64,000 bases of DNA, from positions 3,286,001-3,350,000 of the forward strand of contig NZ_JAANOU010000001.1 of NCBI RefSeq assembly GCF_011758765.1, in the 5' to 3' direction. The translations under genes and the position numbers were made by a program. Position 1 is the stretch's first letter. Every line of letters starts with the position of its first letter. This document shows positions 1 to 16,162 of the stretch, one piece after another. Origin of the DNA: Amycolatopsis viridis (lineage in GTDB: Bacteria > Actinomycetota > Actinomycetes > Mycobacteriales > Pseudonocardiaceae). The notes beneath the pieces were generated by a model. That model saw nothing but the letters and a program-made list of their open reading frames with translations. It made no database searches and had not been told where the DNA came from.

Positions 1-1872
1 GTCGGCATCGAGGTCGCCGAGGTAGCGCAGCACGGTCGTGCGGGCCGGCGCGAGCGGTTCGGCGTCGCGCCCGGGGATCTCCGGGTAGGTCACCTTCGGG
101 GTGTCCAGCACCGCCCGCACGCGGAAGGTCACTCCCTCGACCGGCAGCATCTCGAACCGGTTGCCCGACCGGGCCTCGTAGGTGTCGTGGAACGAGGAGA
201 TCATGGTGCCGATCGCGGCACCGTCGATGGTGCCCGCCGGCACCGGGACGAACGGCGTATCCCAGCTCTGGCCGACCAGGTGGGCGTCCATGCTGCGGTG
301 GAAGGTCACCCGGGTCCCGGGGTCGAGGCGTTCGGCCAGCTGCGCCTCCATCTCGGTGAAGAGGGCATCGATCCGCGGCGCCGCCTCCGGGGTCAGCACC
401 AGGTAGGCGCTCCGGTTGGCGGTGAAGACCTGGTCGGCGGAGAGCAGGCCGAGAGCCGAGAACAGGCCCGGGTTGGGCGGCACGATCACCTGCTTGCAAT
501 GCACCGTGTCGAGCACTGCGGGCAGCAGCATCGGGCCGGCCGCCCCGTAGGCGACGAGGCTGTAGTCGCGCGGGTCGACGCCGTTCTTGATGGCGATGTT
601 GAACACGCCTTCGGCCATGTTGTTCACGGCCATCTCATAGGCGTAGCGCACCCGCTGCGCGAGCGTGAACTCCGAGTCCAGCGCCTCGAACGCCTGCCGG
701 GACAGCGCGGGGTCCAGCGTCATCTCGCCGCCGGCGAACCCGTGCGGGTCGATGATGCCGATCATCAGGCAGGTGTCGGTGGTGGTCGGCAGGGTGCCGC
801 CGCGGCCGTAGCACGCCGGGCCGGGCGCGGCTCCCGCGCTGTCCGGGCCCACCCGGATCTCACCGGCCGGTCCGATCGCGACGATGCTGCCGCCGCCGGC
901 GCCGATGCTGGAGATGTCGTTGGCCAGCGCGTTGACGACGAGGTCGTGTTCGAGCTCGAAGGTGGTGTTGACGAACGGTTCCCCGCCCGTCACGACGCTG
1001 ATGTCGCAGGAGGTGCCGCCGACGTCCGCGCAGAGCAGGTCCTTCTCCCCGATCAGCTCGCCGAAGTGCGCACACGCGACGGTGCCCGCAGCCGGCCCGG
1101 AGAAGACGATGCGGAAGGGGTGCTCCATCGCCCGTCCGGAGGGGACGAGGGTGGCCGCGCAGTCGGCGAAGTTGAGCTGCCCGGTGAAGCCGAGCTCGGC
1201 GAGCCCCTTCTCCAGCCGGGCCGTGTAGTCCGAGTAGATGATCTTCATGAAGGTGTCGATCACCGTCGTGGACGCCCGCGCGTACTCCTTGGCCAGCGGG
1301 GAGACGTCACTGGAGATCGAGCACGGGACATCACCCAGGACCTCGCGCACGAGCTCGCGCAGGCGCACCTCGTGCGCCGGGTTGACGTAGGCGTTGATCA
1401 GGCAGATCGCCACGCCCGTGACGCCGCAGCGCCGCAGCACGTCCAGCTCGGCGCGCGCCTGGGCTTCGTCCAGTTCGAACAGCACGCCGCCGTCGGCGGT
1501 GATGCGCTCGCGGATGCCCCGGCGCAGGTACCGCTGGACCAGCGGGCGCGCGGCGTCGCCGAAGCTGCGGCGCCAGCGCGGGTCCAGGATGGCCGCCGCC
1601 GGGCGCCACACCCGTCCCATGTCGAGGATGTCCCGGTGCCCCTCGGTGGTGAGGAACCCGATCTTGGGCAGGCGCCGGGTGATCACGGCGTTCAAGCCGT
1701 GCGTGCTGGCGTGATTGAACACCGTGGCGCCCTCGACGCCGAGCGTTGCGGCGCCGGCCAGGACGGGACCGGAGACGTCGGTGTAGTCGGTGGACACCTT
1801 CGCGGTCCGGATCCGCCCGTCCTGCAGGGCTACCACGTCGGTGAACGTGCCGCCCACATCCACTGCGATCAT
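1..1872 (-). CDS. Hydantoinase A / acetophenone carboxylase-like ATPase subunit (partial, C-terminus outside window)
   Basis: Predicted ATP-dependent amidohydrolase or carboxylase subunit of the HyuA/oxoprolinase superfamily. About 624 residues are visible before the window edge; family members are usually near 690. The N-terminus has the ATP-binding signature DVGGTFTD (residues 5-12), and a second phosphate-binding motif, CADVGGTSCDIS, lies mid-protein in the hydantoinase A domain. The ATG at 1872 is preceded by GAAGGAG. The start lies 15 nt downstream of a small zinc-ribbon gene, so the two are co-transcribed. HyuA proteins normally work with a HyuB subunit, which would lie left of the window. 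Substrate cannot be read from sequence: hydantoins, 5-oxoproline or ketone carboxylation are all possible. Family call is firm, reaction is open. Confidence 0.88.
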   Translation of the reverse strand, partial: MIAVDVGGTFTDVVALQDGRIRTAKVSTDYTDVSGPVLAGAATLGVEGATVFNHASTHGLNAVITRRLPKIGFLTTEGHRDILDMGRVWRPAAAILDPRWRRSFGDAARPLVQRYLRRGIRERITADGGVLFELDEAQARAELDVLRRCGVTGVAICLINAYVNPAHEVRLRELVREVLGDVPCSISSDVSPLAKEYARASTTVIDTFMKIIYSDYTARLEKGLAELGFTGQLNFADCAATLVPSGRAMEHPFRIVFSGPAAGTVACAHFGELIGEKDLLCADVGGTSCDISVVTGGEPFVNTTFELEHDLVVNALANDISSIGAGGGSIVAIGPAGEIRVGPDSAGAAPGPACYGRGGTLPTTTDTCLMIGIIDPHGFAGGEMTLDPALSRQAFEALDSEFTLAQRVRYAYEMAVNNMAEGVFNIAIKNGVDPRDYSLVAYGAAGPMLLPAVLDTVHCKQVIVPPNPGLFSALGLLSADQVFTANRSAYLVLTPEAAPRIDALFTEMEAQLAERLDPGTRVTFHRSMDAHLVGQSWDTPFVPVPAGTIDGAAIGTMISSFHDTYEARSGNRFEMLPVEGVTFRVRAVLDTPKVTYPEIPGRDAEPLAPARTTVLRYLGDLDAD

Positions 1873-1887
1873 CGGTCGGCTCCTTCG

Positions 1888-2097
1888 TTACAGCGAATCG
1901 GACAGCAGCTGGATCGGGCCGAGGCGTGACCACGGCTCGCGTTCGACCGAATACAGACAGCTCTGGCACTTGACGACCTGGAACCAGCCGCCCTCGGACA
2001 CCACGGGGTAGCGCCGCAGCTCCTCGGCGCCGCACCGGGGACAGGGGCCGTCGACCGGGATCCGCTCGAGAACCGGGTTCTGTTGAATTTTGTTCAT
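1888..2097 (-). CDS. Small zinc-ribbon protein coupled to the HyuA-like gene
   Basis: A 69-residue protein with two CxxC pairs (Cys19/22 and Cys44/47) separated by about 21 residues, the layout of a rubredoxin-like zinc ribbon. The ATG at 2097 follows a GGAG about ten bases upstream, and the stop is 15 nt before the HyuA-like start. Small zinc-ribbon proteins accompany several hydantoinase/acetone-carboxylase-type enzymes and may be a structural subunit; that role is inference from the linkage. It is the first gene of this leftward unit, transcribed from the AT-rich gap it shares with the divergent AraC gene. A longer upstream reading is possible but has no ribosome site. Confidence 0.72.
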   Translation of the reverse strand: MNKIQQNPVLERIPVDGPCPRCGAEELRRYPVVSEGGWFQVVKCQSCLYSVEREPWSRLGPIQLLSDSL

Positions 2098-2235
2098 ATC
2101 CGCACAACTCCACTGGTGTGCTCGGTGGTGACCGCGCGTTCTCGCGCTCGTTGGAGAACGTAGGACCGGGGTGATGCGGACCACCATCCCCTGCGCGAAG
2201 GCGGGCATCCGCTTTCCGAAGGCGCCGACGGCTTC

Positions 2236-2255
2236 GAATAATATGATATATTTAA
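2236..2255. promoter_or_regulatory. AT-rich box between divergent HyuA operon and AraC gene
   Basis: A run of about 20 A/T-dominated bases (contains AATATGATATATT) in otherwise very GC-rich DNA, roughly midway between divergent starts at 2097 and 2287. It may be a -10 region plus operator for one or both units. Similar boxes precede most transcription units up to 15 kb. Confidence 0.5.
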
Positions 2256-2286
2256 GGCAGCACGACGGAGTGCGAGGAGGCAAACC

Positions 2287-3258
2287 ATGCCCGACAGCCA
2301 GGACGGCCAGGCTCCCCTCACCTTCCACACGGACGACCTCGACATCGCGCGCGAGCAGGTGAGCCGGACCTTCGCCAGTCACGACGTCCACGTGGCGAAC
2401 AGCCGGGACCTGAACTTCCGGCTCGAGCTCGCGCCGTCACCGCGCCTGACCATCGGGCGGATGTCCTACGGCGCCGACACCACGATCCTCGGGCCCCCGA
2501 TGCGGCTCTGCTACCACGTCAACCTACCGGTGACGGGCCGGAGCACGGTCGAGCAGAACGGTGTTCGCCGGAGCTTCGTCGCCGGCGAGGCCGGCGTGGC
2601 GTTCGTCCCGCAGGCGCCGGTGCTGGTGCAGTGGAGCGCCGATTCCTGGCAGTACCACGTCAAGCTGCCCAAGGACCTCCTGGAGGCGCACGCCGCCAAG
2701 CTCACCGGGCACACGGCGGGCGGCGAGATCCGCTTCGACCTCACCTTCGGGCTCGGTTCCGGTCCCGGCCAGGCCCTCGTCGCCACCGCGGGCTTCCTGT
2801 ACGCCGAACTCACCCGCCCGGGTGGGATCGGGACGATCCCGGCGGCGTGCCACGAGCTGGAGTCCGCCCTCATGACCCAGCTGCTGATGACGCTGCCCAG
2901 CCAGATCAGCCCGGCCCTGCACAGCAAGCCCGCGCACACCCGGCTGTCGAAGATCCGCGAGGTCGTGGACTACATCGACAACCATCCCGGGGACGAGATC
3001 ACCACGGCCGACCTCGCCGCGATGGCCGGGGTCAGCGCCCGCGCCCTGCAGGCCGGGTTCCAGGAGGTGGTCGGCATGTCGCCCACCGCGTATCTGCGCG
3101 GCGTCCGCCTGGACCGGGTGCACCTGGAGCTGCTCGGCGGCGCTCAAGGCACGGTCACCGAGATCGCGGCGCGGTGGGGCTTCTTCCACCCCGGCCGCTT
3201 CGCCCGCCAGTACCGGGAGCGCTTCGGGCAACTGCCCTCCGACACCGCCCGGCGATGA
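2287..3258 (+). CDS. AraC-family transcriptional regulator
   Basis: 323-residue regulator with an N-terminal AraC-binding-like domain (about residues 20-190, cupin-type, similar to the AraC_binding_2 group) and a C-terminal double helix-turn-helix (about 225-322; the second helix unit ends in RFARQYRERFGQLPS, typical of AraC proteins). ATG 2287 sits 7 bases after GGAGG. It is divergent from the zinc-ribbon/HyuA unit and converges, with only 7 nt between stops, on the racemase-like gene. Proteins of this subclass usually activate an adjacent catabolic operon in response to its substrate. The divergent HyuA unit is therefore the likely target, which is inference. Confidence 0.9.
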   Translation: MPDSQDGQAPLTFHTDDLDIAREQVSRTFASHDVHVANSRDLNFRLELAPSPRLTIGRMSYGADTTILGPPMRLCYHVNLPVTGRSTVEQNGVRRSFVAGEAGVAFVPQAPVLVQWSADSWQYHVKLPKDLLEAHAAKLTGHTAGGEIRFDLTFGLGSGPGQALVATAGFLYAELTRPGGIGTIPAACHELESALMTQLLMTLPSQISPALHSKPAHTRLSKIREVVDYIDNHPGDEITTADLAAMAGVSARALQAGFQEVVGMSPTAYLRGVRLDRVHLELLGGAQGTVTEIAARWGFFHPGRFARQYRERFGQLPSDTARR

Positions 3259-3265
3259 CCCGCGG

Positions 3266-4540
3266 TCAGGCCGAGCGGTCCCCCAGCCCGCGCGCCGCGG
3301 TCGACCACTCGTGGACCAGCTTGCGCAGGTCCAGCTCGTCCGCCGACGGCGCCTGGGGCTCGCGGGCCGGTGTCCGGCTGAACCGGGGCGCCGGGCGCGG
3401 GTGCAGCACGTCGCCGACCCGGGCGAACACCCCGCGCCCGGCGTTGTGCGGGTGGTCCGCCGCCTCGTCGAAGGTCAGCACCGGGGTCACGCACGCGTCG
3501 GTGCCCGCGTAGATCTCCGCCCATTCGTCGCGGGACTTCCGCGCCAGGGCGGCGGCGATCAGCTCCCGCAACCGGGGCCAGGCGTCCCGGTCGTCCTGGG
3601 CGGGCCAGTCCGCCGTGCCGACGCCGAGCCGGGCCACGAACTCCCGGTAGAAGTCGGGTTCGAGAGCTCCGACCGCCAGGTAGCGCCCGTCCGCGCACCG
3701 GTAGGTGTCGTAGAACGGCGCGCCCGAGTCCAGGTAGTTGGTGCCCGGGTCGTCGCTGTAGCGTCCGGCCGCCCGCAGACCCTGGATCTTCGCGGTCAGC
3801 AGCGCCACCCCGTCGACCATCGCGGCGTCGACCACCTGGCCACGCCCCGAGGACCGCGCCTCCAGCACCGCGCACACGATGCCGAACGCCGCGACCAGCG
3901 CCCCGCCCGCGTAGTCGCCGAGCAGGTTGATCGGCGGCCGCGGAGCCTCGCCGGCCCGCGCCATCGCGTACAGCGCACCGGTCTGCGCCACGTAGTTGAT
4001 GTCGTGACCCGCCTCGCGCGCGAGCGGTCCGGTCTGGCCGTAGCCGGTCAGACGCGCGTAGACGATCGCCGGATTGCGCCGCAGCAGCACCTCCGGTCCG
4101 AGCCCGAGGCGTTCGGCCACCCCGGGCCGGAAACCCTCGATGAACACGTCCGCGGCGCCGGCCAGGCGCAGCACGTCCTCGACACCCTCAGCACTCTTCA
4201 GATCCGCCGCGACCGCCCCGACACCCCGGTTGGCGAGGTCGTGCTCGGGGCGCAGCCCGTCGGTCTGGCCGAGGGCGCGGGCGCGCCGGTTCGGCGGACG
4301 CGTGACCCGCACGACCTCCGCGCCCATGTCCGCCAGGAGCATGCTCGCGAACGGCGTCGGCCCCATCCCGGCAAGCGCGACGACGCGCACCCCGGACAGG
4401 GGGCCGCCGACCGGGGCGTCCCCACCACCGGTGTGCAGCCCACCCACCAGGCTGCCCTCACCACCGGCGCGCGGCCCGCCCACCGGAGCGTCCTCACCAC
4501 CGGTGCCGTCCTCGCGACGGGTGTGCGGTTGGGGCGTCAT
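3266..4540 (-). CDS. Alpha-methylacyl-CoA racemase-like family III CoA-transferase
   Basis: 424 residues of the CaiB/BaiF superfamily. The three catalytic residues of M. tuberculosis MCR (His126, Asp156, Glu241) have counterparts at His179 (GHDINY), Asp209 (GDYAGG) and Glu294, with identical spacing. This favours 2-methylacyl-CoA epimerisation over CoA transfer. The core is shifted by about 53 residues because of an N-terminal extension (residues 10-50) built from imperfect Gly-Gly-rich repeats. ATG 4540 has GGGAG about 8 bases upstream; starting farther upstream would read through the promoter. A start inside the extension (near residue 45) cannot be excluded. The gene is divergent from the MHS transporter, which may import the acid whose CoA ester this enzyme handles. 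Confidence 0.85.
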   Translation of the reverse strand: MTPQPHTRREDGTGGEDAPVGGPRAGGEGSLVGGLHTGGGDAPVGGPLSGVRVVALAGMGPTPFASMLLADMGAEVVRVTRPPNRRARALGQTDGLRPEHDLANRGVGAVAADLKSAEGVEDVLRLAGAADVFIEGFRPGVAERLGLGPEVLLRRNPAIVYARLTGYGQTGPLAREAGHDINYVAQTGALYAMARAGEAPRPPINLLGDYAGGALVAAFGIVCAVLEARSSGRGQVVDAAMVDGVALLTAKIQGLRAAGRYSDDPGTNYLDSGAPFYDTYRCADGRYLAVGALEPDFYREFVARLGVGTADWPAQDDRDAWPRLRELIAAALARKSRDEWAEIYAGTDACVTPVLTFDEAADHPHNAGRGVFARVGDVLHPRPAPRFSRTPAREPQAPSADELDLRKLVHEWSTAARGLGDRSA

Positions 4541-4585: not shown

Positions 4586-4655
4586 GTGCATGAAATATAA
4601 TATTGTCAACCGCTTTACCAGGGCTTCCTGTCTTGACATATGAAATTTCATGCAC
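4586..4655. promoter_or_regulatory. Divergent promoter pair with repeated operator arms
   Basis: GTGCATGAAAT at 4586-4596 recurs as a perfect inverted copy at 4645-4655. Each arm lies just downstream of a TTGACA hexamer pointing away from the centre (TTGTCAA at 4603 on the minus side, TTGACA at 4633 on the plus side). The right arm forms the 12-bp palindrome ATGAAATTTCAT (4640-4651). This looks like two -35 elements whose spacers or -10 regions are covered by one regulator, co-controlling the racemase-like gene and the transporter. Confidence 0.65.
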
Positions 4656-4719: not shown

Positions 4720-6036
4720 ATGACGGCCACCGAAGGTAGCGTGCCGGCCCGGACGATGCGGCGTATCGCGATCGCCAGCGGTACCGGCACGGTCATCGAG
4801 TACTACGACTTCTTCGTCTTCGCGACCGCGGCCGCCCTGGTCTTCCCCAAGGTGTTCTTCCCCGCCCTGGGCTCGGCGGCCGGCACCGTCGCCTCGTTCG
4901 CCACGCTCGGCGTCGCGTTCGTGGCCCGCCCGCTCGGGTCGATCCTCTTCGGACACTTCGGCGACCGGCTCGGCCGCAAGCGGACCCTGGTCACCACGTT
5001 GCTCATCATGGGAGTGGCGACCGCGCTGGTCGGGCTGATGCCGACCGCGAACCAGGTCGGGGTGGCGGCCCCGATCCTCGTCGTGGCGCTGCGGGTCCTG
5101 CAGGGACTCGCCCTCGGCGGCGAGTGGACGGGCGCGACGCTGATGGCGGCGGAGAGCGCTCCGCGGTCGCGGCGCGGCTTCTGGTCGATGTTCGGCTCAC
5201 TGGGCGGCTCGATCGGTTTCGTGCTGGCGAGCGCGACGTTCCTGGTGACCGGGGCGACCATGAGCGAGCACGCGTTCGCCAGTTACGGCTGGCGCATCCC
5301 GTTCCTGGCGAGTTTCATCCTGGTGGCGGTCGGGCTGTTCGTCCGGCTCGCGGTGGACGAGACGCCGGTGTTCAAGGGCGAGGTCGCGCGGGGCGGCACC
5401 TCCGGCGCCCCGTTCGTGGAGGCCCTCAAGAGCCAGCCCCGCGAGATCGTCTTCGCGTCGGGCGTCCTGGTGATGGTGTTCGCGTTCTACTACCTGGCCG
5501 TCGGGTACCTCATCAACTACGGCACCGCCGTGCTGAAGCTGAGCCGCCCCACGGTCCTGTCGATCGGCATCGTTTCCGGCGCGGTGTTCGGGATCGCGAT
5601 CGTGCTGGGCGCGGCGATCTCGGACCGGGTCGGCCGACGGCGCATCATCCTGGCCGGGAACGCCGTCGCGCTGGTGTGGGCCCTGGTGCTGTTCCCCATC
5701 CTGGACAACGCTTCGGCGGTCACGTTCGCCCTGGGTTCCTGCGTGACCACCTTCATCGCCGGGTTCGCCTACGGCCCGGTGGGCGCGTTCATGCCGGAGC
5801 TCTTCCGCACGCGGTACCGCTACAGCGCGACCGGCTTCACCTACAACGTGGCCGGCGTCCTCGGCGGCGCGGTGCCCCCGCTCGTCGCGGCCGCCATCAC
5901 GGCGTCCTTCGGGGGATGGGCATTCGGCCTGTTCCTCGCCGTGCTCTGCCTGATCAGCCTGGGATGCACCCTCGCCCTGCGCGAGACCCGGCACGCCGAG
6001 ATGGACCAGCCGGCCGAGAAGGTGGCCCTGAAGTAG
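4720..6036 (+). CDS. MHS-family metabolite:H+ symporter (MFS)
   Basis: 438-residue inner-membrane transporter with about 12 hydrophobic segments. The N-terminal EYYDFFVFATAAALVFPKVFFP segment and the cytoplasmic-loop motif GHFGDRLGRKRTL are hallmarks of the metabolite:H+ symporter branch (ShiA/ProP/KgtP relatives), which imports carboxylates, betaines or shikimate-like acids. ATG 4720 follows GAGAGG by about 6 bases and matches the usual MHS N-terminus; upstream in-frame codons lie in the promoter. It is divergent from the racemase-like gene with shared operator arms, so it plausibly imports the substrate of this catabolic island. A perfect 12-bp hairpin follows the stop. Confidence 0.9.
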   Translation: MTATEGSVPARTMRRIAIASGTGTVIEYYDFFVFATAAALVFPKVFFPALGSAAGTVASFATLGVAFVARPLGSILFGHFGDRLGRKRTLVTTLLIMGVATALVGLMPTANQVGVAAPILVVALRVLQGLALGGEWTGATLMAAESAPRSRRGFWSMFGSLGGSIGFVLASATFLVTGATMSEHAFASYGWRIPFLASFILVAVGLFVRLAVDETPVFKGEVARGGTSGAPFVEALKSQPREIVFASGVLVMVFAFYYLAVGYLINYGTAVLKLSRPTVLSIGIVSGAVFGIAIVLGAAISDRVGRRRIILAGNAVALVWALVLFPILDNASAVTFALGSCVTTFIAGFAYGPVGAFMPELFRTRYRYSATGFTYNVAGVLGGAVPPLVAAAITASFGGWAFGLFLAVLCLISLGCTLALRETRHAEMDQPAEKVALK

Positions 6037-6043
6037 TCCGGCG

Positions 6044-6572: not shown

Positions 6573-6587
6573 TGTATATTTTATACA
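6573..6587. promoter_or_regulatory. TGTATA-N3-TATACA operator
   Basis: Perfect inverted repeat TGTATA (6573-6578) and TATACA (6582-6587) with a TTT spacer, 37 nt upstream of the start of the small protein at 6536. TGTATAC-type palindromes are typical operators of FCD-class GntR repressors, and such a gene lies about 1.3 kb away. Confidence 0.6.
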
Positions 6588-6744: not shown

Positions 6745-7641
6745 TCAGCCCTTGCTCAAGTTCTTCGTGAAGAACTCGGCCAGCTTCTCGACGGCCTGGG
6801 TGACGTACGGTTCCTTGTCGTACAGATCGACGTGGCTGGCGCCCTCGATCTGGACGAGCTCCGCGTTGTCACCTGCCCGCGACACCGCGTCCTCACTGAC
6901 CGGCAACGTCATCGCCCTGGTGCCGGCGATCATCAGCAGCGGGCGCGGCGCGATCTTGTCCACATCGCGGTACGCCGTGAACTGCGCCAGCTTGTCGGCG
7001 CTGCGGACCGCGATCGTGTTCGTGGCCCGTGGGTGCTGGGCACGAGGGGTCTTGTAGTAGTCGACGAACTCGGCGATCGCCTCCGGCGTCGACTCATCGG
7101 CAGCCTCGGGCAGCAGCGAGATCGTCGGCGCCTCGCCACCGGCGGCCTCCACGTTCCGGGCCTCCGCGGCCGCGTCCAGCAGCTGGTCGAAGGCCTTGTC
7201 GTCCCCGCCCGTGAGCCAGGCCGGCACGTCGGCGGCGCTGACCGTGGCCACCGCCTTCATGCGGCGGTCGGTCTGGGCGCTGTACACCACGTAACCACCC
7301 GACCCGCAGATGCCCAGAATGCCGATCCGCGCCGGGTCGACGTCGTCCCGGGTGGTCAGGTACGACACCGCGTTGCGGAAGTCGTCCGCGCGCTGGATGG
7401 GGTCTTCCAGGCCATGCGGCTCCCCCTCGCTCTCCCCCTGGTAAGCCGCGTCGAACGCCAGGGTCACGAAGCCGTGCTCGGCCAGCCGGCGGGCGTAGAG
7501 CCCGGCGGCCTGTTCCTTGACCCCCGTGGTCGGGTGACCGACCACGACGGCCGGCCGCCGCTCCGGCGTCGCGGTGTCAGGCGTGTAGACGTGCCCGGCC
7601 ACCATCAGGCCGTTGCTGGGAAAACGCACATCGGTCTTCAT
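6745..7641 (-). CDS. Alpha/beta hydrolase (dienelactone-hydrolase / YcjY-like)
   Basis: 298-residue cytoplasmic hydrolase of the alpha/beta fold. The nucleophile elbow is in GILGICGSGGYVVYS, where either Cys or Ser of the GICGSGG segment may be the nucleophile, as in YcjY/dienelactone-hydrolase-like proteins. The oxyanion region is around VVVGHPTTGVKEQ and the general-base His is in GASHVDLY near the C-terminus. ATG 7641 follows GGAGGTGA. It is divergent from the GntR regulator with the AT-rich gap between them, so it is likely in that regulator's control. It could cleave an ester or lactone intermediate of the island's pathway; substrate unknown. Confidence 0.85.
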   Translation of the reverse strand: MKTDVRFPSNGLMVAGHVYTPDTATPERRPAVVVGHPTTGVKEQAAGLYARRLAEHGFVTLAFDAAYQGESEGEPHGLEDPIQRADDFRNAVSYLTTRDDVDPARIGILGICGSGGYVVYSAQTDRRMKAVATVSAADVPAWLTGGDDKAFDQLLDAAAEARNVEAAGGEAPTISLLPEAADESTPEAIAEFVDYYKTPRAQHPRATNTIAVRSADKLAQFTAYRDVDKIAPRPLLMIAGTRAMTLPVSEDAVSRAGDNAELVQIEGASHVDLYDKEPYVTQAVEKLAEFFTKNLSKG

Positions 7642-8632: not shown

Positions 8633-9499
8633 TCACTCCGGCAGCCCGGCCGTGAGGTGCCGCGCGTCCGCGGCCCAGGACGCCAGGATCCGCAAGCCGT
8701 CGTGTGACGGGGTGCCGGGTTCGGCCGTCCAGACGACGAGTTGCTGGTCGGGGTCGGTCGTGCAGGTCAGCGTGTCCCAATCCAGGGTGAGTTCACCGGC
8801 CACCGGGTGCCGCATGAGCTTCGTGCCCACGGTCCGCGTGGCCACGTGGTGCCCGGCCCACCACCGGCGGAACTGTTCGTCCCGCACCGCGAGTTCACCG
8901 ACGAGCTCGGCGAGCTGCGGGTCGTTCGGATGCCGCGCGGCCTCCATCCGCACCTGCGCGACGCACATGGACGCGACGTCCTCCCACCGCGGGTACAGCG
9001 CGCGCAGGGACGGTTCGGTGAACACCAGACGCAGGTAGTTGCGCCGTTTCGCGGGGATGCTCGAGAAGTCCATGACCAGGGCGGCCGCCATCGGGTTCCA
9101 GGCCAGGATGTCCATGCGGCGCCCGAGGACCACCGCCGGCGTGGTGGGCAGGTCCTCGAGCAGGCGCCGCAGCTGGGGCTCCACCTTCTGCGCACTGCGG
9201 CGGCGCGGCCGGGCCGCATCCTTTCCCGCGAGTTCGAACATGTAGGCGCGCTCGTCGTCGCCCAGCTGCAGTACGCGCCCGAGGGCGTCCAGCACCGGCA
9301 CCGACGCCTGGATCCGGCCCTGCTCGAGCCGGCTGTAGTAGTCGACGCTGATCGACGCCAGGTGTGCAACCTCCTCACGGCGCAGTCCCCGCACCCGGCG
9401 GTTGCCGCCGGCGGGCAGCCCCACCGCCCGCGGCGTCAGGTCCGCACGGCGCGCTTTGAGGAACTCGCCCAGCTGGCTCGCCCGAGGATTCCGTGGCAT
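8633..9499 (-). CDS. Helix-turn-helix regulator with MmyB-like ligand domain
   Basis: 288-residue regulator. Residues about 8-80 are an XRE-type helix-turn-helix (RGLRREEVAHLASISVDYYSRLEQGR), and about 110-285 match the MmyB-like PAS-type domain common in actinobacteria (AWNPMAAALVMDF; RNYLRLVFTEPSLRALYPRWEDVA; DQQLVVWTAEPGTPSHDGLRIL). ATG 9499 starts at the conserved domain edge, although its ribosome site is weak; in-frame codons upstream lack one too. Members of this family often control adjacent short-chain dehydrogenases or hydrolases. Here it is divergent from the second alpha/beta hydrolase with an AT-rich box between them. Confidence 0.88.
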   Translation of the reverse strand: MPRNPRASQLGEFLKARRADLTPRAVGLPAGGNRRVRGLRREEVAHLASISVDYYSRLEQGRIQASVPVLDALGRVLQLGDDERAYMFELAGKDAARPRRRSAQKVEPQLRRLLEDLPTTPAVVLGRRMDILAWNPMAAALVMDFSSIPAKRRNYLRLVFTEPSLRALYPRWEDVASMCVAQVRMEAARHPNDPQLAELVGELAVRDEQFRRWWAGHHVATRTVGTKLMRHPVAGELTLDWDTLTCTTDPDQQLVVWTAEPGTPSHDGLRILASWAADARHLTAGLPE

Positions 9500-9635: not shown

Positions 9636-10499
9636 GTGACACCAGGGGAAACCGTTCGACGCGAGCACGTGCGGTTCGCCGGGCACCAGGGCGTCACGCT
9701 GGCCGCCGATCGCTGGGCCCCGTCGGGAGCCGAGCGGCGGACGGTGCTCCTGCTGCCCGGCGGCGGACAGACCCGGCGGTCCTGGAGCCGGACGGCGGAG
9801 CGACTCGCCGCCGAGGGCTGGCCGGCCCTCGGCATGGACGCGCGCGGCCACGGCGACAGCGAATGGTCCCCCGCCGGCGCGTACCGGCTGGACGATTTCG
9901 TCGCCGATCTGCACGCCGTGGTGGACCAGCTGGGCGCGCCTCCGGTGGTCGTCGGCGCCTCGCTGGGCGGCCGGACCGCGCTGGCGGCCGAGGGCGAAAG
10001 CCCCGGGTTGCTCGCCGGCCTGGTGCTGGTGGACATCACCCACCGGGTCGACCGGACCGGCCAGGCACGAGTGCGCAGGTTCCTGGAGAGCGCGCCGAAC
10101 GGTTTCGGCTCGCTCGACGAGGCCGCGGCCGCGGTCGACGCGTACCGGCCGCGACCGGGCACCCGCCGCAATCTCGACGGCCTCCGGAAGAACCTCCGCC
10201 GGCGGGCGGACGGTCGCTGGTACTGGCACTGGGATCCCGGGTTCCTCGCCTTCGCCGCGGACGCCCGCAACTCCGACGAAACGCGCCTGACGCGGGCCGC
10301 CCGGCACGTCACCATCCCCACCCTCCTCGTCCGGGGCCGGCACTCGGACATGGTGCCCCGGGCCGCGGCGGCCGAACTGCTCGAGCTGATCCCCTCGGCC
10401 GAACTCGTCGAGGTCGCCGCGGGACACATGATCGCGGGCGACGACAACGACGTCTTCACCGAGCGCCTGTGCGAATTCCTCGCCGGGCGTGTGCCGTAG
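9636..10499 (+). CDS. Alpha/beta hydrolase
   Basis: 287-residue alpha/beta-fold hydrolase. Landmarks in order: oxyanion loop LLLPGGGQTRRSW, MDARGHGDSEW strand, nucleophile elbow GASLGG, acid in RGRHSDMVP, and catalytic His in AAGHMIAGDDN. GTG 9636 is six bases after CGGGAGG. It is upstream of, and in the same orientation as, the Mct-like gene, but a separate AT-rich promoter lies between them. It belongs to the peroxidase-like/epoxide-hydrolase-like branch by overall pattern, though halides or esters cannot be distinguished. Within the island it may be a CoA-thioesterase or ester hydrolase feeding the CoA-transferases; that is inference. Confidence 0.85.
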   Translation: MTPGETVRREHVRFAGHQGVTLAADRWAPSGAERRTVLLLPGGGQTRRSWSRTAERLAAEGWPALGMDARGHGDSEWSPAGAYRLDDFVADLHAVVDQLGAPPVVVGASLGGRTALAAEGESPGLLAGLVLVDITHRVDRTGQARVRRFLESAPNGFGSLDEAAAAVDAYRPRPGTRRNLDGLRKNLRRRADGRWYWHWDPGFLAFAADARNSDETRLTRAARHVTIPTLLVRGRHSDMVPRAAAAELLELIPSAELVEVAAGHMIAGDDNDVFTERLCEFLAGRVP

Positions 10500-10522
10500 A
10501 CCGCTCAGACTTTCCGCGTTTA

Positions 10523-10537
10523 GTATACATAATATAC
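10523..10537. promoter_or_regulatory. GTATA-N5-TATAC operator upstream of Mct-like gene
   Basis: Inverted repeat GTATA (10523-10527) and TATAC (10533-10537) about 50 nt before the GTG start at 10590. It is flanked by TTA and AAT, giving a GntR/FCD-like palindrome. Confidence 0.55.
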
Positions 10538-10589
10538 AATCTGACAGGACGGCATCATCAGTCCTGCACCCGAACACGAGGTCACCGCA

Positions 10590-11813
10590 GTGAGCGCAGC
10601 GAACCCGAGCAGCACCCCGAACCCCGCCCCGCTCGCCGGACTGCGGATAGTGGAACTGTCGAGCTACGTGGCGACGCCCCTGTGCGGAATGACGCTCGCC
10701 CAGCTGGGCGCCGACGTGATCCGGGTGGAGCCGCTCGGCGGCGCGGCCGACCGGACCCGGCTGCCGTTGGCGCCGACCGGCACGAGCCTCTACTGGACCG
10801 GCCTGAACAAGGGCAAGCGGGCGATCGCGGTGAACCTGTCCGCACCGGCCGGCAAGGATCTCGTCGCCCGCCTGGCGGCCGAACGCGGAATCGTGCTCAC
10901 GAACTCCGAACGGGTCGTGCCACCGGCGGACCTGCGCGCGCGACGTCCCGACCTCATCCACGTCCTGCTCACCGGACGCCAGGACGGTGGTCCGGCCGTC
11001 GACTACACCGTCAACGCCGAGTGCGGGTTCCCGCTGGCCACCGGCCCCGCGGGCGGCGACTCGCCGGTGAACCACCTGCTGCCCGCCTGGGACGTCGCGG
11101 CCGGGCTGTACCTGGCGGTCGGCCTGCTCAGCGCGGTCCGCGAACACGCGCGGACCGGCCGGCCGCAGAACGTGCGCGTCGCGCTGGAGGACGTGGCCCT
11201 CGGCGTCACGGGCAACCTGGGCTACCTCGCCCAGGCCCAGATCACCGGCGAAGCACGCGAGCCGGACGGCAACTTCGTGTACGGCACCTTCGGCAAGGAC
11301 TTCGTCACCGCGGACGGCATCCGGGTCATGGTCGTCGCGCTCACCCCACGGCACTGGCGCGACCTGGTCGCCATGACCGAATCGGCCGAGGTGATCAAGG
11401 CGATCGAGACCGCCCGGTCGGCCGATTTCGACGACGAGGGCGACCGGTACCGCCATCGGCACCTCCTGGCGGCGGTGCTGGGCGACTGGTTCGCGACGCG
11501 CCCCTACGCGGAGGTGGCAGCCGCCTTGAGCGAGACCCGCGTCGTGTGGTCGCGGTTCCGAAGGTTCACCGAACTCGCCGAGTCCGGCCTCCTGCGCGAC
11601 AACCCCCTGTTCAACGAGCTGGACCAGCCGGGCGTGGGGCGCCATCTCGCTCCGGGATCGCCGCTGGTCGTCGGGGGCGGCCGGGCGCCGGCGGTGCCCG
11701 CGCCCGCGGTCGGCGAGCACACCCACGAGCTGCTGCGCGAGGAGATCGGGCTGGGCGAGCGCGACCTCGACCGGCTCGTCCGCGAAGGCGTCATCGAACC
11801 GCGCGGCGCCTGA
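10590..11813 (+). CDS. mct: 2-methylfumaryl-CoA isomerase-like family III CoA-transferase
   Basis: 407 residues. The pattern matches the mesaconyl-CoA C1-C4 isomerase of Chloroflexus far more closely than generic CaiB proteins: SSYVATPLCGMTLAQLGADVIR, YWTGLNKGKR, LLTGRQDGG followed by VDYTVN, NHLLPAWDVAAG, and YGTFGKDF with VMVVALT. The catalytic Asp is Asp168 in PAWD. The predicted reaction is intramolecular transfer of CoA between the two carboxylates of 2-methylfumaryl(mesaconyl)-CoA. GTG 10590 is supported by GAGG about 9 bases upstream. It converges with two PrpD-family genes, and a MaoC-type hydratase remnant of the kind that would follow this step lies about 4.5 kb downstream. The comparison is from memory of the family, so a related unsaturated dicarboxyl-CoA is possible. 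Confidence 0.75.
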   Translation: MSAANPSSTPNPAPLAGLRIVELSSYVATPLCGMTLAQLGADVIRVEPLGGAADRTRLPLAPTGTSLYWTGLNKGKRAIAVNLSAPAGKDLVARLAAERGIVLTNSERVVPPADLRARRPDLIHVLLTGRQDGGPAVDYTVNAECGFPLATGPAGGDSPVNHLLPAWDVAAGLYLAVGLLSAVREHARTGRPQNVRVALEDVALGVTGNLGYLAQAQITGEAREPDGNFVYGTFGKDFVTADGIRVMVVALTPRHWRDLVAMTESAEVIKAIETARSADFDDEGDRYRHRHLLAAVLGDWFATRPYAEVAAALSETRVVWSRFRRFTELAESGLLRDNPLFNELDQPGVGRHLAPGSPLVVGGGRAPAVPAPAVGEHTHELLREEIGLGERDLDRLVREGVIEPRGA

Positions 11814-11814
11814 G

Positions 11815-11839: not shown

Positions 11840-11849
11840 GCCGGGCGGG

Positions 11850-13244
11850 TCAGGCGATCAACAGTGCGGCCAGCGTCGCCGCGGGCATCGCCGGATCGTC
11901 CTCGACGATGGCCCGCAGCAGCGCCTCGCTGCGCTCAGCGCCCAGGGCCGACAGCGTGAGATCCCGGAACTTGGCGTCGAGGTCGTGCTGCGACATCGGG
12001 TTCTCGGCCGTGCCGAGCGGGCTGTCGACGAACAGGTTCTCCCGGGTGCGGTCGGTGTAGGTGACGGTGATGTCGGCGACCCACTTACCGCGGTGGGCCG
12101 CATCGAGGTCCGGCCGCGGGGTGATGTGGACGCGCCGGGCGAGCTTGTCCACCTCGCTGCCGTCGGACAGGCCGAGCCGTCCCGCCAGGAAGTCGTGGTG
12201 GGTGGTGAAGCCGTTGCCCCGGCCGAGCACCGCGAGGGCGAACTGGAACGGCAGGCTGTACTGCAGGTTTTCGATGGTCTGCGGGGCGTACGCGTGCGCG
12301 TTCCGGTCGCCGACGATGATGTTCCCGCCGGTCTGGATCCCCAGTTCGACGGTGTCGATCTCCGCGGCGCGGTCCGCCAGCCGGCGCGCGCCGTCGATGT
12401 AGGCGTGGTTGATGCCGCAGCAGCAGTACGGCTTGATCCAGATGCGGGTGATCTCGAACGGCCGGTCCGGGGAAAACGCGGCGGCGGCATCCTCTCCCGC
12501 CGAACGCCCGGCAAAAGTGCGGTAGAAGCCCTTGCCACCGCTGAGGAACTCCGCGGGACCGGTGATGCCCGCCTCGGCCATCTCCGCCGAGCGGATGCCG
12601 TTGCGGGTACCGATGCCGGCGTGCACCCGCTTCACGGACCCCCCGGACGAGGTGTACTCGGTGGTTCCGGCGCAGTGGCTCATCGCGATCGACAACGCGT
12701 GGAGGATCCGATCGCGGTCGAAGCCGCGCATCTTCGCGACCACGGCGGCGGCACCGAACGCGGAGAGCACCGCGTGCGGGTGGAACCCGCGCTCCAGCAG
12801 GTCCGGCGCGGCGAGCACACCGAGCCGGGTGTAGACCTCGTACCCGGCGACGATGCCCAGCAGCACCTCGCGCATCGTCGCGCCGATCTCCTCCCCCACG
12901 GCCAGCGCGGTGGGCACCACGCAGCTGCCGGGGTGGCTCGAGCTCGCGCGGTGGGCGTCGTCGTACTCGAAGCCGTGACCGAACGAGGCGTTGACGAACG
13001 CCGCGTCGGCGGCGCTCATCCGGTCACCGGCGACGGTCACCCGGGCCGACCCGGGCGCGTGCGACGCACGCGTGAGCCGCAGGACCGTCTGGCTCCAGGG
13101 CAGCGCGGCGCAACCCACCTGAACGGCCAGCTGGTCCTGCAGGAGCCGCCGCGCGCCGCGGACCGCTTCGGCCGGGAGCGTTTCGTAGCGCAGCTCGTCG
13201 ACCAGGTGCACCACGGCTGCTTCGAGCGGCGGGGTTTCCGGCAT
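11850..13244 (-). CDS. MmgE/PrpD family protein (paralogue 1)
   Basis: 464 residues covering the full MmgE/PrpD fold: helical N-domain with NASFGHGFEYDDAH and SSSHPGSCVVPTALAVGEEIG, then a C-terminal lid domain with KPYCCCGINHAYIDG. The family includes 2-methylcitrate dehydratase, cis-aconitate decarboxylase and iminodisuccinate epimerase, all acting on branched tricarboxylates or dicarboxylates. ATG 13244 follows GGAAAG at a suitable distance. It lies 66 nt downstream of a second PrpD paralogue in the same direction, so the two are likely one operon. The unusual CCC in the substrate-loop segment replaces the more common CRxxH-type sequence seen in paralogue 2 (PYPHCRILHA). Divergent specificity is likely. 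Confidence 0.88.
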   Translation of the reverse strand: MPETPPLEAAVVHLVDELRYETLPAEAVRGARRLLQDQLAVQVGCAALPWSQTVLRLTRASHAPGSARVTVAGDRMSAADAAFVNASFGHGFEYDDAHRASSSHPGSCVVPTALAVGEEIGATMREVLLGIVAGYEVYTRLGVLAAPDLLERGFHPHAVLSAFGAAAVVAKMRGFDRDRILHALSIAMSHCAGTTEYTSSGGSVKRVHAGIGTRNGIRSAEMAEAGITGPAEFLSGGKGFYRTFAGRSAGEDAAAAFSPDRPFEITRIWIKPYCCCGINHAYIDGARRLADRAAEIDTVELGIQTGGNIIVGDRNAHAYAPQTIENLQYSLPFQFALAVLGRGNGFTTHHDFLAGRLGLSDGSEVDKLARRVHITPRPDLDAAHRGKWVADITVTYTDRTRENLFVDSPLGTAENPMSQHDLDAKFRDLTLSALGAERSEALLRAIVEDDPAMPAATLAALLIA

Positions 13245-13310
13245 GAGCTTCTCACTTTCCTTCGCAGCGCACCATGCGCTGGTGCCGTGACGTACCGATG
13301 TGTGAATGAG

Positions 13311-14735
13311 CTACCGGGGCGGGCGCACGCAGTCCATGAGCGTGCTGACGTCCGCCACCGCCTCCAGTCCGAGGACCGCGTCGACCACGGCCGCCACGTT
13401 CGATTCGGGCAGGACACCGCCGGCGTTGTGCCGGAACTTGGCGACCAGGTCCTCGGTCGTCATCCGCGTGGCGGGGTCGGGTGACGGCACGCCCTTGGGG
13501 TAGCTGCGCTCTCCGACGAACGTCTGCCCGCGCGCGGTGACCTCGACCCGGGACGGGCGCGCCGCGGGGTGGCCGCTGATCGCCGAGACGTAGTCCGCGT
13601 GCGGCTCGTAGGACACCTTCTCCATCAGTTCGAGGACCGACCGGCTGTGCACCAGTTCCGGGTCCAGCCAGTCCCTGCCCGGCGGTACCCGGTGCGCCCC
13701 CACCGCGAGCCCGTGCGCGATGCTGAACTCGGCGTCCCGGGGTTCGGCGATCGTGCGGTTGAGCCACACCGGCTGCTGCACGAACGGCTCCCCCCACGTC
13801 TTGATGGAGTCGATCTCCTCCGGCGCGAGGTCGTGGGTCTCGACGATCTCGCGCAGCGCGTCGAGCGGGGCGTGCAGGATCCGGCAGTGGGGGTACGGTT
13901 TGTAGGCCTGTTCGGTGACGAACTTCCAGTCGCTGCCCAGACCTGCCGTGATCCGCTCGGGTTCCCAGCGGGTGGTGCCGATGAAGCGCGGCCAGCCGAA
14001 CTCCGCGTCATCGAGGATCCGCAGGTCACCTCGGTGCCCGAACTCGGCCAGGTGCGCGGCGGTCAACGCCGTCTGCGGAAGGGTCCCCGCGAGCATGTAC
14101 TTGATCGTCGTGCTCGGCGTGTGCATCATCCACGCCCGCATGGCGTTGACCGGGGCGATACTGGCCGCGATGCCCAGTGCGTGCCCCAGCGTCTCCTCGG
14201 ACAGTCCCTGCACCATCGCGACCGCGGCGGTCGCGCCGAACACGGTGCTGCTGTACCCGTAGACCGGCGGGATCGTCACCTCGCCGTCCTTGATGTCGCG
14301 CAGGTAGTCGGTCGCCTTGCCAATCCGGTACGACATCTCGTGCGCCACGGCCAGTGCCGCGATCAGGTCCTTCCCCGGCTTGTGGCCCGCTTCGGCCACG
14401 GCCAGGGCACCGGGCACCACGTACGGGGTGACGTGGCCCGGCGGGACGACGGCGTCCATGTCGAGGGCGTTGACGAGGTCGGCGTTGGCGAACGCGGCAC
14501 CGAAGATCGAGACCTTGCCGGAGGCACCGATCAACGTTGCGTCGCCGCTCGCGCCGCCGAGCAGCGACGCGAACTCCACAGCCTTGCGCGCACCGGGTTC
14601 GGCCACCGCGGCCAGCGCGCATCCGAGCGAGTCCAGCAGGATCCGCTTGCACTCCTCGACCACGTCGTCCGGCAAGGCCGCGAACCCACTTCGGCTGCTG
14701 AACTCGGCCAGGCGCTCGACGAGGGACTGGGACAT
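13311..14735 (-). CDS. MmgE/PrpD family protein (paralogue 2)
   Basis: 474-residue MmgE/PrpD protein. Motifs: LLDSLGCALAA near the N-terminus, NALDMDAVVPPGHVTPYVVPGALAVAE, KYMLAGTLPQTALTAAHLAEFGHRG, and the lid signature KPYPHCRILHAPLDAL that is typical of 2-methylcitrate dehydratase-like enzymes. ATG 14735 follows GGAGA by six bases. It is the first gene of the two-gene leftward unit and is divergent from a family III CoA-transferase across a gap carrying two AT-rich boxes. Neither paralogue sits with citrate synthase or methylisocitrate lyase, so an ordinary methylcitrate cycle is unlikely. A dehydratase, isomerase or decarboxylase role on a C5-C6 acid fits better. Confidence 0.88.
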   Translation of the reverse strand: MSQSLVERLAEFSSRSGFAALPDDVVEECKRILLDSLGCALAAVAEPGARKAVEFASLLGGASGDATLIGASGKVSIFGAAFANADLVNALDMDAVVPPGHVTPYVVPGALAVAEAGHKPGKDLIAALAVAHEMSYRIGKATDYLRDIKDGEVTIPPVYGYSSTVFGATAAVAMVQGLSEETLGHALGIAASIAPVNAMRAWMMHTPSTTIKYMLAGTLPQTALTAAHLAEFGHRGDLRILDDAEFGWPRFIGTTRWEPERITAGLGSDWKFVTEQAYKPYPHCRILHAPLDALREIVETHDLAPEEIDSIKTWGEPFVQQPVWLNRTIAEPRDAEFSIAHGLAVGAHRVPPGRDWLDPELVHSRSVLELMEKVSYEPHADYVSAISGHPAARPSRVEVTARGQTFVGERSYPKGVPSPDPATRMTTEDLVAKFRHNAGGVLPESNVAAVVDAVLGLEAVADVSTLMDCVRPPR

Positions 14736-14750
14736 CGCTTCTCCGTTCTC

Positions 14751-14772
14751 ATATTAATATATTTTATGTAAA
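14751..14772. promoter_or_regulatory. AT-rich box upstream of PrpD operon
   Basis: Contains the perfect palindrome ATATTAATAT (14751-14760) followed by ATTTTATGTAAA, 16 nt upstream of the PrpD start; the position suits an operator over the start region or -10. Confidence 0.5.
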
Positions 14773-14927
14773 CCCAACCCGCGGTAACTGTCAAGGGATG
14801 GTGGCCGTCGGCGGATCCGCGAGCCGGAACCACTCCGCCACCGGTGACTCACGGCGACGACAACGCCCCCAGCGGGACTCGCCGGGGATCCGCGACGCAC
14901 ACCGTGGCGTCGGCCGCTCTTGTCGTT

Positions 14928-14950
14928 GAAATATATTTTACTTAGTATTG
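14928..14950. promoter_or_regulatory. AT-rich box upstream of CoA-transferase at 14990
   Basis: Contains AAATATATTTTAC followed by TTAGTATTG, about 40 nt before the ATG. The TTAGTAT element also occurs in the box before the mct-like gene (10520). Confidence 0.5.
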
Positions 14951-14989
14951 CTGATGAGCGTCGAACTTCTCAGCGGAGCGAGGTCCACC

Positions 14990-16162
14990 ATGCAGCACAA
15001 GCCGCTCACGGGCATCAGGATCCTGGAGATCGGCGGGTACATCTCCCTTCCCTACGGCACCTCACTCCTGTGCGCGCTCGGAGCCGAGGTCGTCAAGGTC
15101 GAGAAACCGGGAGACGGCGAGGACTTCCGGCGCCGGGACAACAACCGCAGCGTGTACTTCATCCAGGTGAACGCGGGCAAGCGCAGCCTGGCCGTCGACC
15201 TGAAGCGCCCAGAAGGTGTGGCGCTGGTGAAGAAGCTGATCCCGCGGTTCGACGTGGTCCTGGAAAACATGCGGCCCGGCAAGCTGGCCGCGCTCGGGCT
15301 CGGGCCGGATGACTGCCGTGCCCTGCGGCCGGACCTGGTCTACGGATCGGTGACCGGGTTCGGCAGCGGCGGGCCGCTCGCCTCGCGCCCGGCCTACGAC
15401 ACGATCGGCCACGCCTTCGGGGGCCTCTACTCCCTGTTCAGCGATGCCGGGAACTACCAGCTCGCGGGTGGGCTCTGCGCCGACCTCGTCACCGGTCTCG
15501 CCACCGCGACGGGCGTGCTCGCCGCCCTGGTCGGTCGCGCTTCGTCGGGCGCCGGACAACACGTCGAGACCTCGATCATGGAGGCGGTCAGCACGCTGAC
15601 CACCGACGCCATCACGCAGTACTTCGAGACCGGGACCGACCCGGACCGGCAGAGCAGGCATCCGCAGGCCCAGAACTTCTGCGTCCAGACCGCCTCGGGC
15701 GAGTTCCTCGCGCTCCACCTGTCGTCGTCGCAGAAGTTCTGGCGGTCGCTGTGCGCCGCGATGAGCCGGCCGGACCTCCCCGAGGACCCGCGGTTCGCCG
15801 AGTTCCGCCACCGCGAGCGGAACTACTTCGAGCTGGTGAAGATCGTGGAGGCCGAGTTCGCCACGAAACCGAAGGACGAGTGGGAGAAGCGGCTCGCCGA
15901 GTTCGACGTCCCGTTCGCGCCGGTGCTGACCATGTCCGGCTACATCGAGCACCCGCAGGTGAAATGGCTCGATCTGATCGAGCCGGAGCGGAACGGGGTA
16001 TCGCTGGTCCGGCCACCCTGGCGGTTCGAGGGGTCCCGCCCCGAGCGCGGTGGCGACGCCCCCCGCGTCGGGCAGCACAGCCGCGAGGTCGCGTCCGAGA
16101 TCTGTGACGACGCCGAGCTCGACGAGCTCGTCGCGGCCGGCGTGCTGTACGTGGAATCCTGA
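14990..16162 (+). CDS. Family III CoA-transferase (CaiB/BaiF)
   Basis: 390 residues with the usual interlaced-ring family pattern: TGIRILEIGGYISLPYGTSLL, GAEVVKVEKPGDGEDFR, NAGKRSLAVDLK, TGFGSGGPLASRPAYDTIGHA. The likely catalytic Asp is Asp165 (LCADLVTG). The position matching the racemase His is Tyr136 here, so this is a true CoA-transferase rather than an epimerase. ATG 14990 has GAGG upstream; a TTG 42 bases earlier is in frame but weaker. Paired with the mct-like enzyme, it could activate mesaconate, itaconate or a similar acid with succinyl-CoA; that is inference. Divergent from the PrpD pair. Confidence 0.85.
   Translation: MQHKPLTGIRILEIGGYISLPYGTSLLCALGAEVVKVEKPGDGEDFRRRDNNRSVYFIQVNAGKRSLAVDLKRPEGVALVKKLIPRFDVVLENMRPGKLAALGLGPDDCRALRPDLVYGSVTGFGSGGPLASRPAYDTIGHAFGGLYSLFSDAGNYQLAGGLCADLVTGLATATGVLAALVGRASSGAGQHVETSIMEAVSTLTTDAITQYFETGTDPDRQSRHPQAQNFCVQTASGEFLALHLSSSQKFWRSLCAAMSRPDLPEDPRFAEFRHRERNYFELVKIVEAEFATKPKDEWEKRLAEFDVPFAPVLTMSGYIEHPQVKWLDLIEPERNGVSLVRPPWRFEGSRPERGGDAPRVGQHSREVASEICDDAELDELVAAGVLYVES

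Follow-up and report, generated by a model that had tools for sequence, protein, structure and literature searches.

Which compound might be degraded by a set of genes whose enzyme families are known but whose combination is unfamiliar? The question is raised by the first 16 kb (positions 1-16162) of a 64,000-nucleotide stretch of the Amycolatopsis viridis genome (the window; genome positions 3286001-3350000 of a one-contig, 5.68-Mb genome, completeness 95.4%; feature coordinates are window positions unless marked "genome"). These 16 kb carry three CaiB-type proteins (CaiB1, CaiB3 and MctL, a relative of the mesaconyl-CoA C1-C4 transferases, MCTs), two MmgE/PrpD-family proteins (PrpD1 and PrpD2), a HyuA-type protein, a symporter, two hydrolases and three regulators. 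An earlier note had listed these families, on which our Pfam and NCBIfam scans agree, and had proposed that they share a catabolic pathway. We find that these 16 kb form just the right-hand part of a catabolic island that takes up at least genome 3252900-3302165 (49 kb, 0.87% of the genome). A shared pathway is supported by gene sets conserved in other genera, by the co-occurrence of CaiB3, PrpD2 and Mct-like genes and by an AT-rich site specific to the island. Searches of an open-access library for this set of genes, whole or in part, turned up nothing on the combination.

Extent, conservation and putative regulatory site of the island

The right end of the island, as the note had placed it, is a real edge: 93-98% DNA identity to G113 and A. 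deserti (G175), near-continuous through the island, stops at 16165/16289. A. deserti is the closest named relative among the loci found (its Mct-like protein is 97% identical). To the left the note fell short. Both relatives are colinear, in pieces of 93-98% identity, from the left edge of the compared DNA, and genome 3252900 is simply the leftmost regulatory-type site close to the island, which may extend further left. The absence of standard partner enzymes, on which the note had insisted, holds for positions 1-16162 but not for the island: an HpcH/HpaI lyase, two MaoC proteins, acyl-CoA dehydrogenases (ACADs), an ACS-like ligase, a thiolase and HyuB all lie to the left, and they seemed to be lacking because the window edge cut the island. 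One of the seven HpcH/HpaI (PF03328) matches in the genome, at genome 3266190-3266864, is ~19 kb left of the window, which rules out the statement that there is no lyase and removes the ground on which an itaconate-type route had been set aside.

Conservation was counted with 34 island proteins as queries (identity line 45%, best label per place) in the island's own stretch and 12 others. G015, from another Pseudonocardiaceae genus, has 28 of the 34 (51-92% identity), G054 has 22 (53-92%), A. acididurans (ADU) 20, A. acidicola (ACI) 17 and G241 11, while plasmid stretches have ten (Burkholderia arboris), seven (Paracoccus versutus), six (Rhodococcus opacus), five (Cupriavidus pinatubonensis) and four (R. 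koreensis). Shared by G015 and G054 are HyuB (91-92%), HyuA (89%), ACAD_C (92%), ACAD_B (88%), MaoC (84-85%), the lyase (79%), the alpha-methylacyl-CoA racemase (AMACR)-like CaiB1 (79%), PrpD2 (60%) and MctL (56-57%); G015 has, in addition, PrpD1 (71%) and CaiB3 (72%). The B. arboris plasmid carries HyuA (78%), HyuB (76%), MaoC (70%), thiolase (69%), PrpD1 and PrpD2 (56% each), AMACR (55%) and lyase (44%); that of P. versutus thiolase (71%), PrpD1 (70%), MaoC (59%) and PrpD2 (53%); and that of R. opacus the lyase, MaoC, ACS, ACAD_A and AMACR at 61-78%. On the C. pinatubonensis plasmid, with MaoC (71%), PrpD2 (53%), AMACR (50%) and lyase (45%), the annotation places two CaiB, an ACAD, a MaoC and a CoA ester lyase side by side. 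An island "built on" three CaiB and two PrpD proteins, as the note had it, is therefore too narrow a description: 11 of 13 stretches (own included; the exceptions are G241 and R. koreensis) have all four of ACAD_A, MaoC, lyase and AMACR, and MctL and PrpD1 are patchier.

Of 11 PrpD2 copies compared in actinobacteria, eight have a CaiB3 orthologue beside them: the island's own, those of G175, G113 and G241, and two each in A. acidicola and A. acididurans, where the two pairs of a genome lie 23-25 kb apart. The copies of G015, G054 and R. koreensis have no such neighbour. Within the genus, CaiB3 and PrpD2 (both at E up to 1e-100) are found in the same five of 19 genomes, and these five have, at the same locus, a Mct-like gene at least 63% identical, a line chosen after the list was seen; some Mct-like gene is present in 13 of the 19, the next in rank being 61% identical and without PrpD2. 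Across the order, PrpD2 occurs in six of 397 genomes, and in five of these a Mct-like gene lies no more than about 50 kb away on that contig. These counts are not independent because the genomes are related, but gene co-occurrence is conserved within Pseudonocardiaceae, which was one of the comparisons by which the note had proposed to check itself.

The genome has about 71% GC where read, and an AT-rich site stands out in the island. The 10-mer ATATATTTTA is found at both the prpD2 and caiB3 starts and, together with its one-mismatch forms, occurs five times in the window against 0.02 expected from shuffles. The 5.68 Mb of the genome hold five exact copies (none of the reversed control). Every one of them falls within the island and sits at a gene start: those of maoC, the PF01144 gene, gntR2/acad_B, prpD2 and caiB3. 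Allowing up to two mismatches, AATATATTTTAY has 22 matches in the whole genome versus three for the control; once strands were merged by hand these are 15 sites, 12 of them in the island. All nine matches with at most one mismatch are in the island, and 11 of the 12 island sites lie within 100 bp of a start, the exception being at window 6573. The binomial figure for this clustering (8e-23) is indicative only, because the motif came from two of the counted sites; the fair test is given by the other three exact sites, none of which is in the window and each of which fell at a partner gene. Of 15 AT-rich patches counted over 124 kb, the island holds 14, and the 47 kb to its right are free of them. 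By eye, TAATATATTA-like palindromes can be seen ahead of the island genes of A. acidicola, A. acididurans and G241, and less clearly in G015 and G054. This distribution suggests that the island is apparently co-regulated as one regulon, with the GntR/FCD regulators as probable binders of the AATATATTTTAY sites. A site specific to the island gives direct experimental access to the regulon and, through it, to the substrate that induces it.

Candidate pathway and the compound degraded

We propose, with confidence a little short of even, that the compound degraded is a 1,4-dicarboxylate with a methyl branch or another alpha substituent, and that the island breaks it down via CoA esters, along the lines of the itaconate/methylsuccinate route and under common regulation. 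That the substrate is specifically a C5 acid (methylsuccinate or mesaconate) is unlikely. In the excerpt of PMC12290011 on which we draw, methylsuccinate is broken down by five proteins acting together: a MaoC protein, an ACAD, a CaiB transferase, an HpcH/HpaI lyase and an isomerase of the PrpD family, which works on the free acid, before activation. All five families are present in the island. The reactions and their order, which we infer, would be as follows. The acid would be taken up by the MHS symporter or an ABC transporter, or the monooxygenase, hydrolases, dehydrogenases and HyuAB of the island would form it out of a larger precursor. PrpD1 and PrpD2 would carry out alpha-proton rearrangements of the free acid, and CaiB3, the neighbour of PrpD2, or the ACS-like enzyme would form the CoA ester. 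CaiB1 could then epimerise the alpha-methyl centre, an ACAD could produce the enoyl-CoA, MctL could shift CoA intramolecularly from one carboxyl to the other and MaoC could hydrate the product. Cleavage of the hydroxyacyl-CoA by the CitE/malyl-CoA-lyase-like enzyme would then yield acetyl- or propionyl-CoA together with a 2-oxo acid, either pyruvate or glyoxylate. The GntR/FCD regulators would act at the AATATATTTTAY sites.

The family assignments are consistent with these roles. CaiB1 has AMACR 8rmw as its best match (391.8 bits), and the four MCR catalytic residues, which we take to be His126, Asn152, Asp156 and Glu241, are identical in the alignment, as the note had claimed; its orthologues in ACI, ADU, G015 and G054 are 74-79% identical. 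CaiB3 (PF02515, 315 bits) scores 186 bits to YfdE 4hl6 and 183 bits to SUGCT 9br7. The best PDB matches of MaoC are 4e3e and the beta-methylmalyl-CoA dehydratase 8hgn, and those of the lyase are the malyl/beta-methylmalyl-CoA lyase 5ugr and the mitochondrial citrate-lyase-beta-like 5vxc.

Several observations weigh against this proposal. None of three key enzymes reaches its equivalog cut-off: MctL scores 370 bits with TIGR04253 (cut-off 725), MaoC 131 bits with RipB/Ich (340) and the lyase 113 bits with RipC (375) and 168 bits with citE (443). The best PDB match of ACAD_A scores 237.4 bits, whereas 6es9, presumably methylsuccinyl-CoA dehydrogenase, ranks 13th at 166.5 and 8ciw scores 104.4, and we therefore do not identify ACAD_A specifically with that enzyme. 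As aligned, the epimerase tyrosine (Tyr145 of IDS epimerase, Tyr148 of the methylsuccinate isomerase Msi) is Leu in six of six PrpD1 rows, and in the 14 PrpD2 rows, poorly aligned over 145-150, its column holds Asp 13 times and Thr once. With regard to conservation, MctL is nowhere the best match in the plasmid stretches of Burkholderia, Paracoccus, Cupriavidus and Rhodococcus; in the G241 genome PrpD2 is present but there is no Mct-like gene at E up to 1e-40; and PrpD1 is found in just six of 13 stretches, being missing from those of ACI, ADU, G054 and G241. The 63% line, drawn after the fact, belongs here as well. Among the 62 of 80 Mct-like loci with full flanks, PrpD is near in three, all Amycolatopsis, and an HpcH lyase in nine, as compared with MaoC in 21, thiolase in 38 and ACAD in 42 (raw counts without background control; genus labels assigned by hand, with Mycobacterium as default). 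The patch before MctL is AT-rich and yet has no match within two mismatches of the site, and by eye the site pattern is not seen in the B. arboris stretch. Lastly, four AMP-ligase-like proteins, together with HyuAB and the FMO-like monooxygenase, suggest that the starting compound is larger. We have put the mechanism at the level of enzyme classes for two of these reasons: the missed cut-offs argue for a different, related substrate, and the monooxygenase and HyuAB for a larger precursor.

It is indeed conceivable, if rather unlikely in our estimate, that a larger alicyclic, terpenoid or lactam/imide compound is degraded, and that MctL, the PrpD proteins and the lyase act late, on ring-derived substituted succinates instead of a C5 acid, as ThnP does. 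Besides the proteins just named, the SDRs and the SnoaL protein in the island would fit such a substrate, as would the ABC-permease/strictosidine-synthase-like frame, hydrolase and ADH to its left, the loss by PrpD2, as aligned, of two conserved carboxylate-binding residues, and the frequency of ACAD and thiolase genes near Mct-like genes elsewhere, again as raw counts without control for chance. ThnP itself is an intramolecular CoA transferase required ahead of ring-derived dicarboxyl-CoA beta-oxidation, but it belongs to family I, not family III (PMC11659651, excerpt). Furthermore, the FMO-like protein best-matches no place in the G015, G054, ACI and ADU stretches and may therefore be accessory (R. 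koreensis has one, 49% identical). Compounds of the indoleacetate or 4-methyl-3-oxoadipate type are further conceivable substrates.

MctL and the PrpD proteins

Judged by its sequence, MctL is a member of the mesaconyl-CoA C1-C4 transferase clade, and the same reaction stays a candidate for it. It scores 347.5 bits to the crystallised MCT 8apq, the highest score to any other family being 89.5 bits, and is 45% identical to both crystallised MCTs. A place outside the isomerase clade was one of two findings that, according to the note, would refute it. A FastTree analysis covered 109 related loci (a few genes being duplicated between two collections), MctL, the two MCTs and, as outgroup, five sequences from the rest of family III. 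All Mct-like sequences, MctL included, form one 112-leaf clade (support 0.838) with none of the five outgroup sequences inside. MctL has the catalytic Asp165 together with Arg47 and Arg314; Arg47 and Asp165 are present in 109/109 related loci and Arg314 in 26/109. In the excerpt of PMC9196870, Arg314 moves onto and contacts the product in the Roseiflexus MCT crystal structure.

Could MctL be an ordinary intermolecular family III CoA-transferase that merely resembles the isomerase? Its missed equivalog cut-off, the grouping of the characterised MCTs in a 9-leaf subclade without MctL, the presence of Asp165 in all five outgroup sequences and of Arg in the Arg47 column of CaiB1 and CaiB3 would allow it. 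The GGGG loop is lacking in MctL and in CaiB3, which is no proof of intramolecular transfer because other intermolecular family III enzymes lack the loop; the intramolecular ones named are Mct of CO2-fixing phototrophs with the 3-hydroxypropionate route, and IaaL, which performs both kinds of transfer (PMC11659651, excerpt). The score gap between MCT and the best other family, and the retention of the product-contacting Arg314, which 83/109 related loci are without, make this improbable. As an observation apart, seven Mct-like proteins in the characterised-MCT subclade (L021, L024-L027, L029, L030) carry Asp at the position of Arg314 and may thus act on a different substrate.

PrpD1 and PrpD2 are the sole PF03972 matches in the genome, and their best PDB sequence match is in both cases IDS epimerase. 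The PrpD family is mostly uncharacterised, and 96.2% of methylsuccinate isomerases are in Pseudomonadota (PMC12290011, excerpt). In lieu of a tree with true methylsuccinate isomerases, our test rests on the residues named in that excerpt, given in IDS epimerase numbering. PrpD1 has H85, E88, H99, L145, H150, K198 and K266: all six carboxylate-binding residues are kept, and Glu88 matches Glu91 of Msi. PrpD2, as aligned, has N85, D88, H99, D145, K198 and K266, and no His150 in 14/14 rows, the alignment being uncertain over 145-150. The two proteins thus differ at active-site columns, in line with the unlike motifs described in the note. For this alignment, matches of <350 residues were dropped, a third B. 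arboris PrpD (29%, in neither group) was left out, and three rows of each group are near-identical.

A textbook route, either the methylcitrate cycle or a canonical itaconate cluster, shares families with the island and nothing more, and is very improbable. With the methylcitrate dehydratase model NF042438 (cut-off 950 bits), PrpD1 and PrpD2 score 35.9 and 28.7 bits and no match in the genome, which is 95.4% complete, exceeds the cut-off, on which grounds we reject the methylcitrate cycle; MaoC and the lyase are far under the RipB/RipC cut-offs. Among further loci examined for comparison, the PrpD neighbourhood on a C. necator plasmid showed no itaconate cluster by similarity to island proteins, and the Rhodococcus HyuAB loci and a Sphingobium PrpD locus gave no pointer to the substrate. 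A chance neighbourhood of unrelated genes, which their spread over both strands and the several regulators might suggest, is refuted for most of them by the sets conserved in other genera and on plasmids and by the island-specific site.

Features of the island and its place among known systems

Table 1. Features of the island, in window positions; genes left of the window are listed in groups.
Feature	Position	Strand	Basis or remark
ACAD_A, ACS-like ligase, MaoC	left of window	-	Pfam/NCBIfam
AMP ligase, FMO-like monooxygenase, SDR, SnoaL protein	left of window, next group	+	
ALDH, HpcH/HpaI lyase, PF01144 protein, second GntR (gntR2)	left of window, next group	-	
ACAD_B, ACAD_C, SDR, second MaoC	left of window, next group	+	
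ADH, thiolase, PaaK-like, cupin, AMP ligase, ALDH, HyuB, HyuA	left of window to window edge	-	
HyuA-type hydantoinase/oxoprolinase subunit	1..1872	-	C-terminus left of window, HyuB next gene outside
AT-rich site between hyuA and araC	2241..2252	.	2 mismatches to AATATATTTTAY
AraC-family regulator	2287..3258	+	PF14525, PF12833
CaiB1, alpha-methylacyl-CoA racemase-like	3266..4540	-	start ATG predicted from translation
AT-rich site upstream of CaiB1 and MHS	4590..4601	.	2 mismatches
MHS-type metabolite/H+ symporter	4720..6036	+	TIGR00883 393 bits, cut-off 443; 83% in G015
AT-rich site, remote from any start considered	6573..6584	+	2 mismatches
Dienelactone-hydrolase-like protein	6745..7641	-	PF01738; predicted start
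GntR/FCD regulator, candidate binder of AT-rich site	7880..8581	+	PF00392, PF07729; predicted start
XRE/MmyB-type regulator	8633..9499	-	PF17765 207 bits; predicted start
Alpha/beta hydrolase (PcaD-like)	9636..10499	+	PF00561; TIGR02427 80.5 bits, below cut-off 256
AT-rich patch upstream of MctL	10517..10547	.	outside hits within 2 mismatches of site
MctL, 2-methylfumaryl-CoA isomerase clade family III CoA-transferase	10590..11813	+	TIGR04253; candidate intramolecular CoA transferase
PrpD1, MmgE/PrpD family	11850..13244	-	Pfam, PDB sequence match, active-site columns
PrpD2, MmgE/PrpD family, pocket divergent as aligned	13311..14735	-	Pfam, PDB sequence match, active-site columns
AT-rich site ATATATTTTA, 5' end of prpD2	14757..14766	+	1 of 5 in genome
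AT-rich site ATATATTTTA, 5' end of caiB3	14931..14940	+	1 of 5 in genome
CaiB3, FRC/SUGCT-like family III CoA-transferase, divergent neighbour of prpD2	14954..16162	+	start may be 14990
Right edge of colinearity	16165 (G113), 16289 (A. deserti/G175)	.	DNA alignment

ALDH and ADH of the left part were named by similarity to annotated neighbours. HyuA matches PF01968 (228 bits) and PF05378; the zinc ribbon that the note had given it is ruled out, the complete 679-aa protein having no CxxC. The GntR/FCD regulator within the window is 73-74% identical in ACI and ADU. Further left of the island, and colinear with the relatives over the compared DNA, are ABC-transporter genes, a hydrolase and an ADH; a 763-aa frame at genome 3248523-3250814 (L118:2523-4814; minus strand) joins an ABC permease (PF02653) to a strictosidine-synthase/SGL-like domain (PF03088, PF08450). 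Just past the end of colinearity, a fragment of a type ISP restriction-modification coupler (PF22240; 16607-17149, minus strand) may mark an insertion or deletion scar. Elsewhere in the genome, at 3910257-3912058 (L134), a second HpcH/HpaI lyase stands directly beside another CaiB, possibly a second dicarboxylate locus. At L136:39119-40324, a PLSDB-predicted OXA beta-lactamase label covers exactly the 401-residue frame of a thiolase that is 69% identical to that of the island, and looks like a false call.

The closest parallel in gene content is the ich-mcd-mmgE-ict-ccl cluster of Pseudomonas and Cupriavidus, where MaoC, ACAD, MmgE/PrpD, CaiB and HpcH/HpaI lyase genes are likewise clustered (PMC12290011, excerpt). 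The island differs from it by the addition of Mct-like, AMACR, ACS, HyuAB, thiolase and a second PrpD, by a MaoC and a lyase below the equivalog cut-offs and by PrpD proteins that, as aligned, are without the catalytic tyrosine. The second half of the 3-hydroxypropionate bicycle consists of Mcl, Mch, Mct and Meh, and the island likewise unites Mct-like, beta-methylmalyl-CoA-dehydratase-like MaoC and malyl-CoA-lyase-like genes; its host, however, is a heterotrophic soil actinobacterium, its 163-aa MaoC matches one half of the 350-aa dehydratases and the expected direction is catabolic. The crystallised MCTs share with MctL, known from sequence alone, their clade, 45% identity, Arg47, Asp165 and Arg314, and stand apart in their own subclade and in the equivalog score. 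ThnP of anaerobic naphthalene degradation may resemble MctL in its role, an intramolecular CoA shift in a dicarboxyl-CoA pathway, but is a family I (Cat1) protein (PMC11659651, excerpt).

In conclusion, and as a doubtful extension of our proposal, the island could encode an undescribed aerobic pathway in heterotrophs, in which a Mct-type intramolecular CoA transferase followed by a citramalyl/malyl-CoA-type lyase would cleave substituted succinates under its own regulatory site, with two PrpD reactions new to the family. Were this so, the pathway might, with similar reserve, amount to a catabolic use of the 3-hydroxypropionate bicycle's second half. With this island a close Mct relative comes within reach of experiment in a heterotroph, accompanied by two divergent PrpD proteins.

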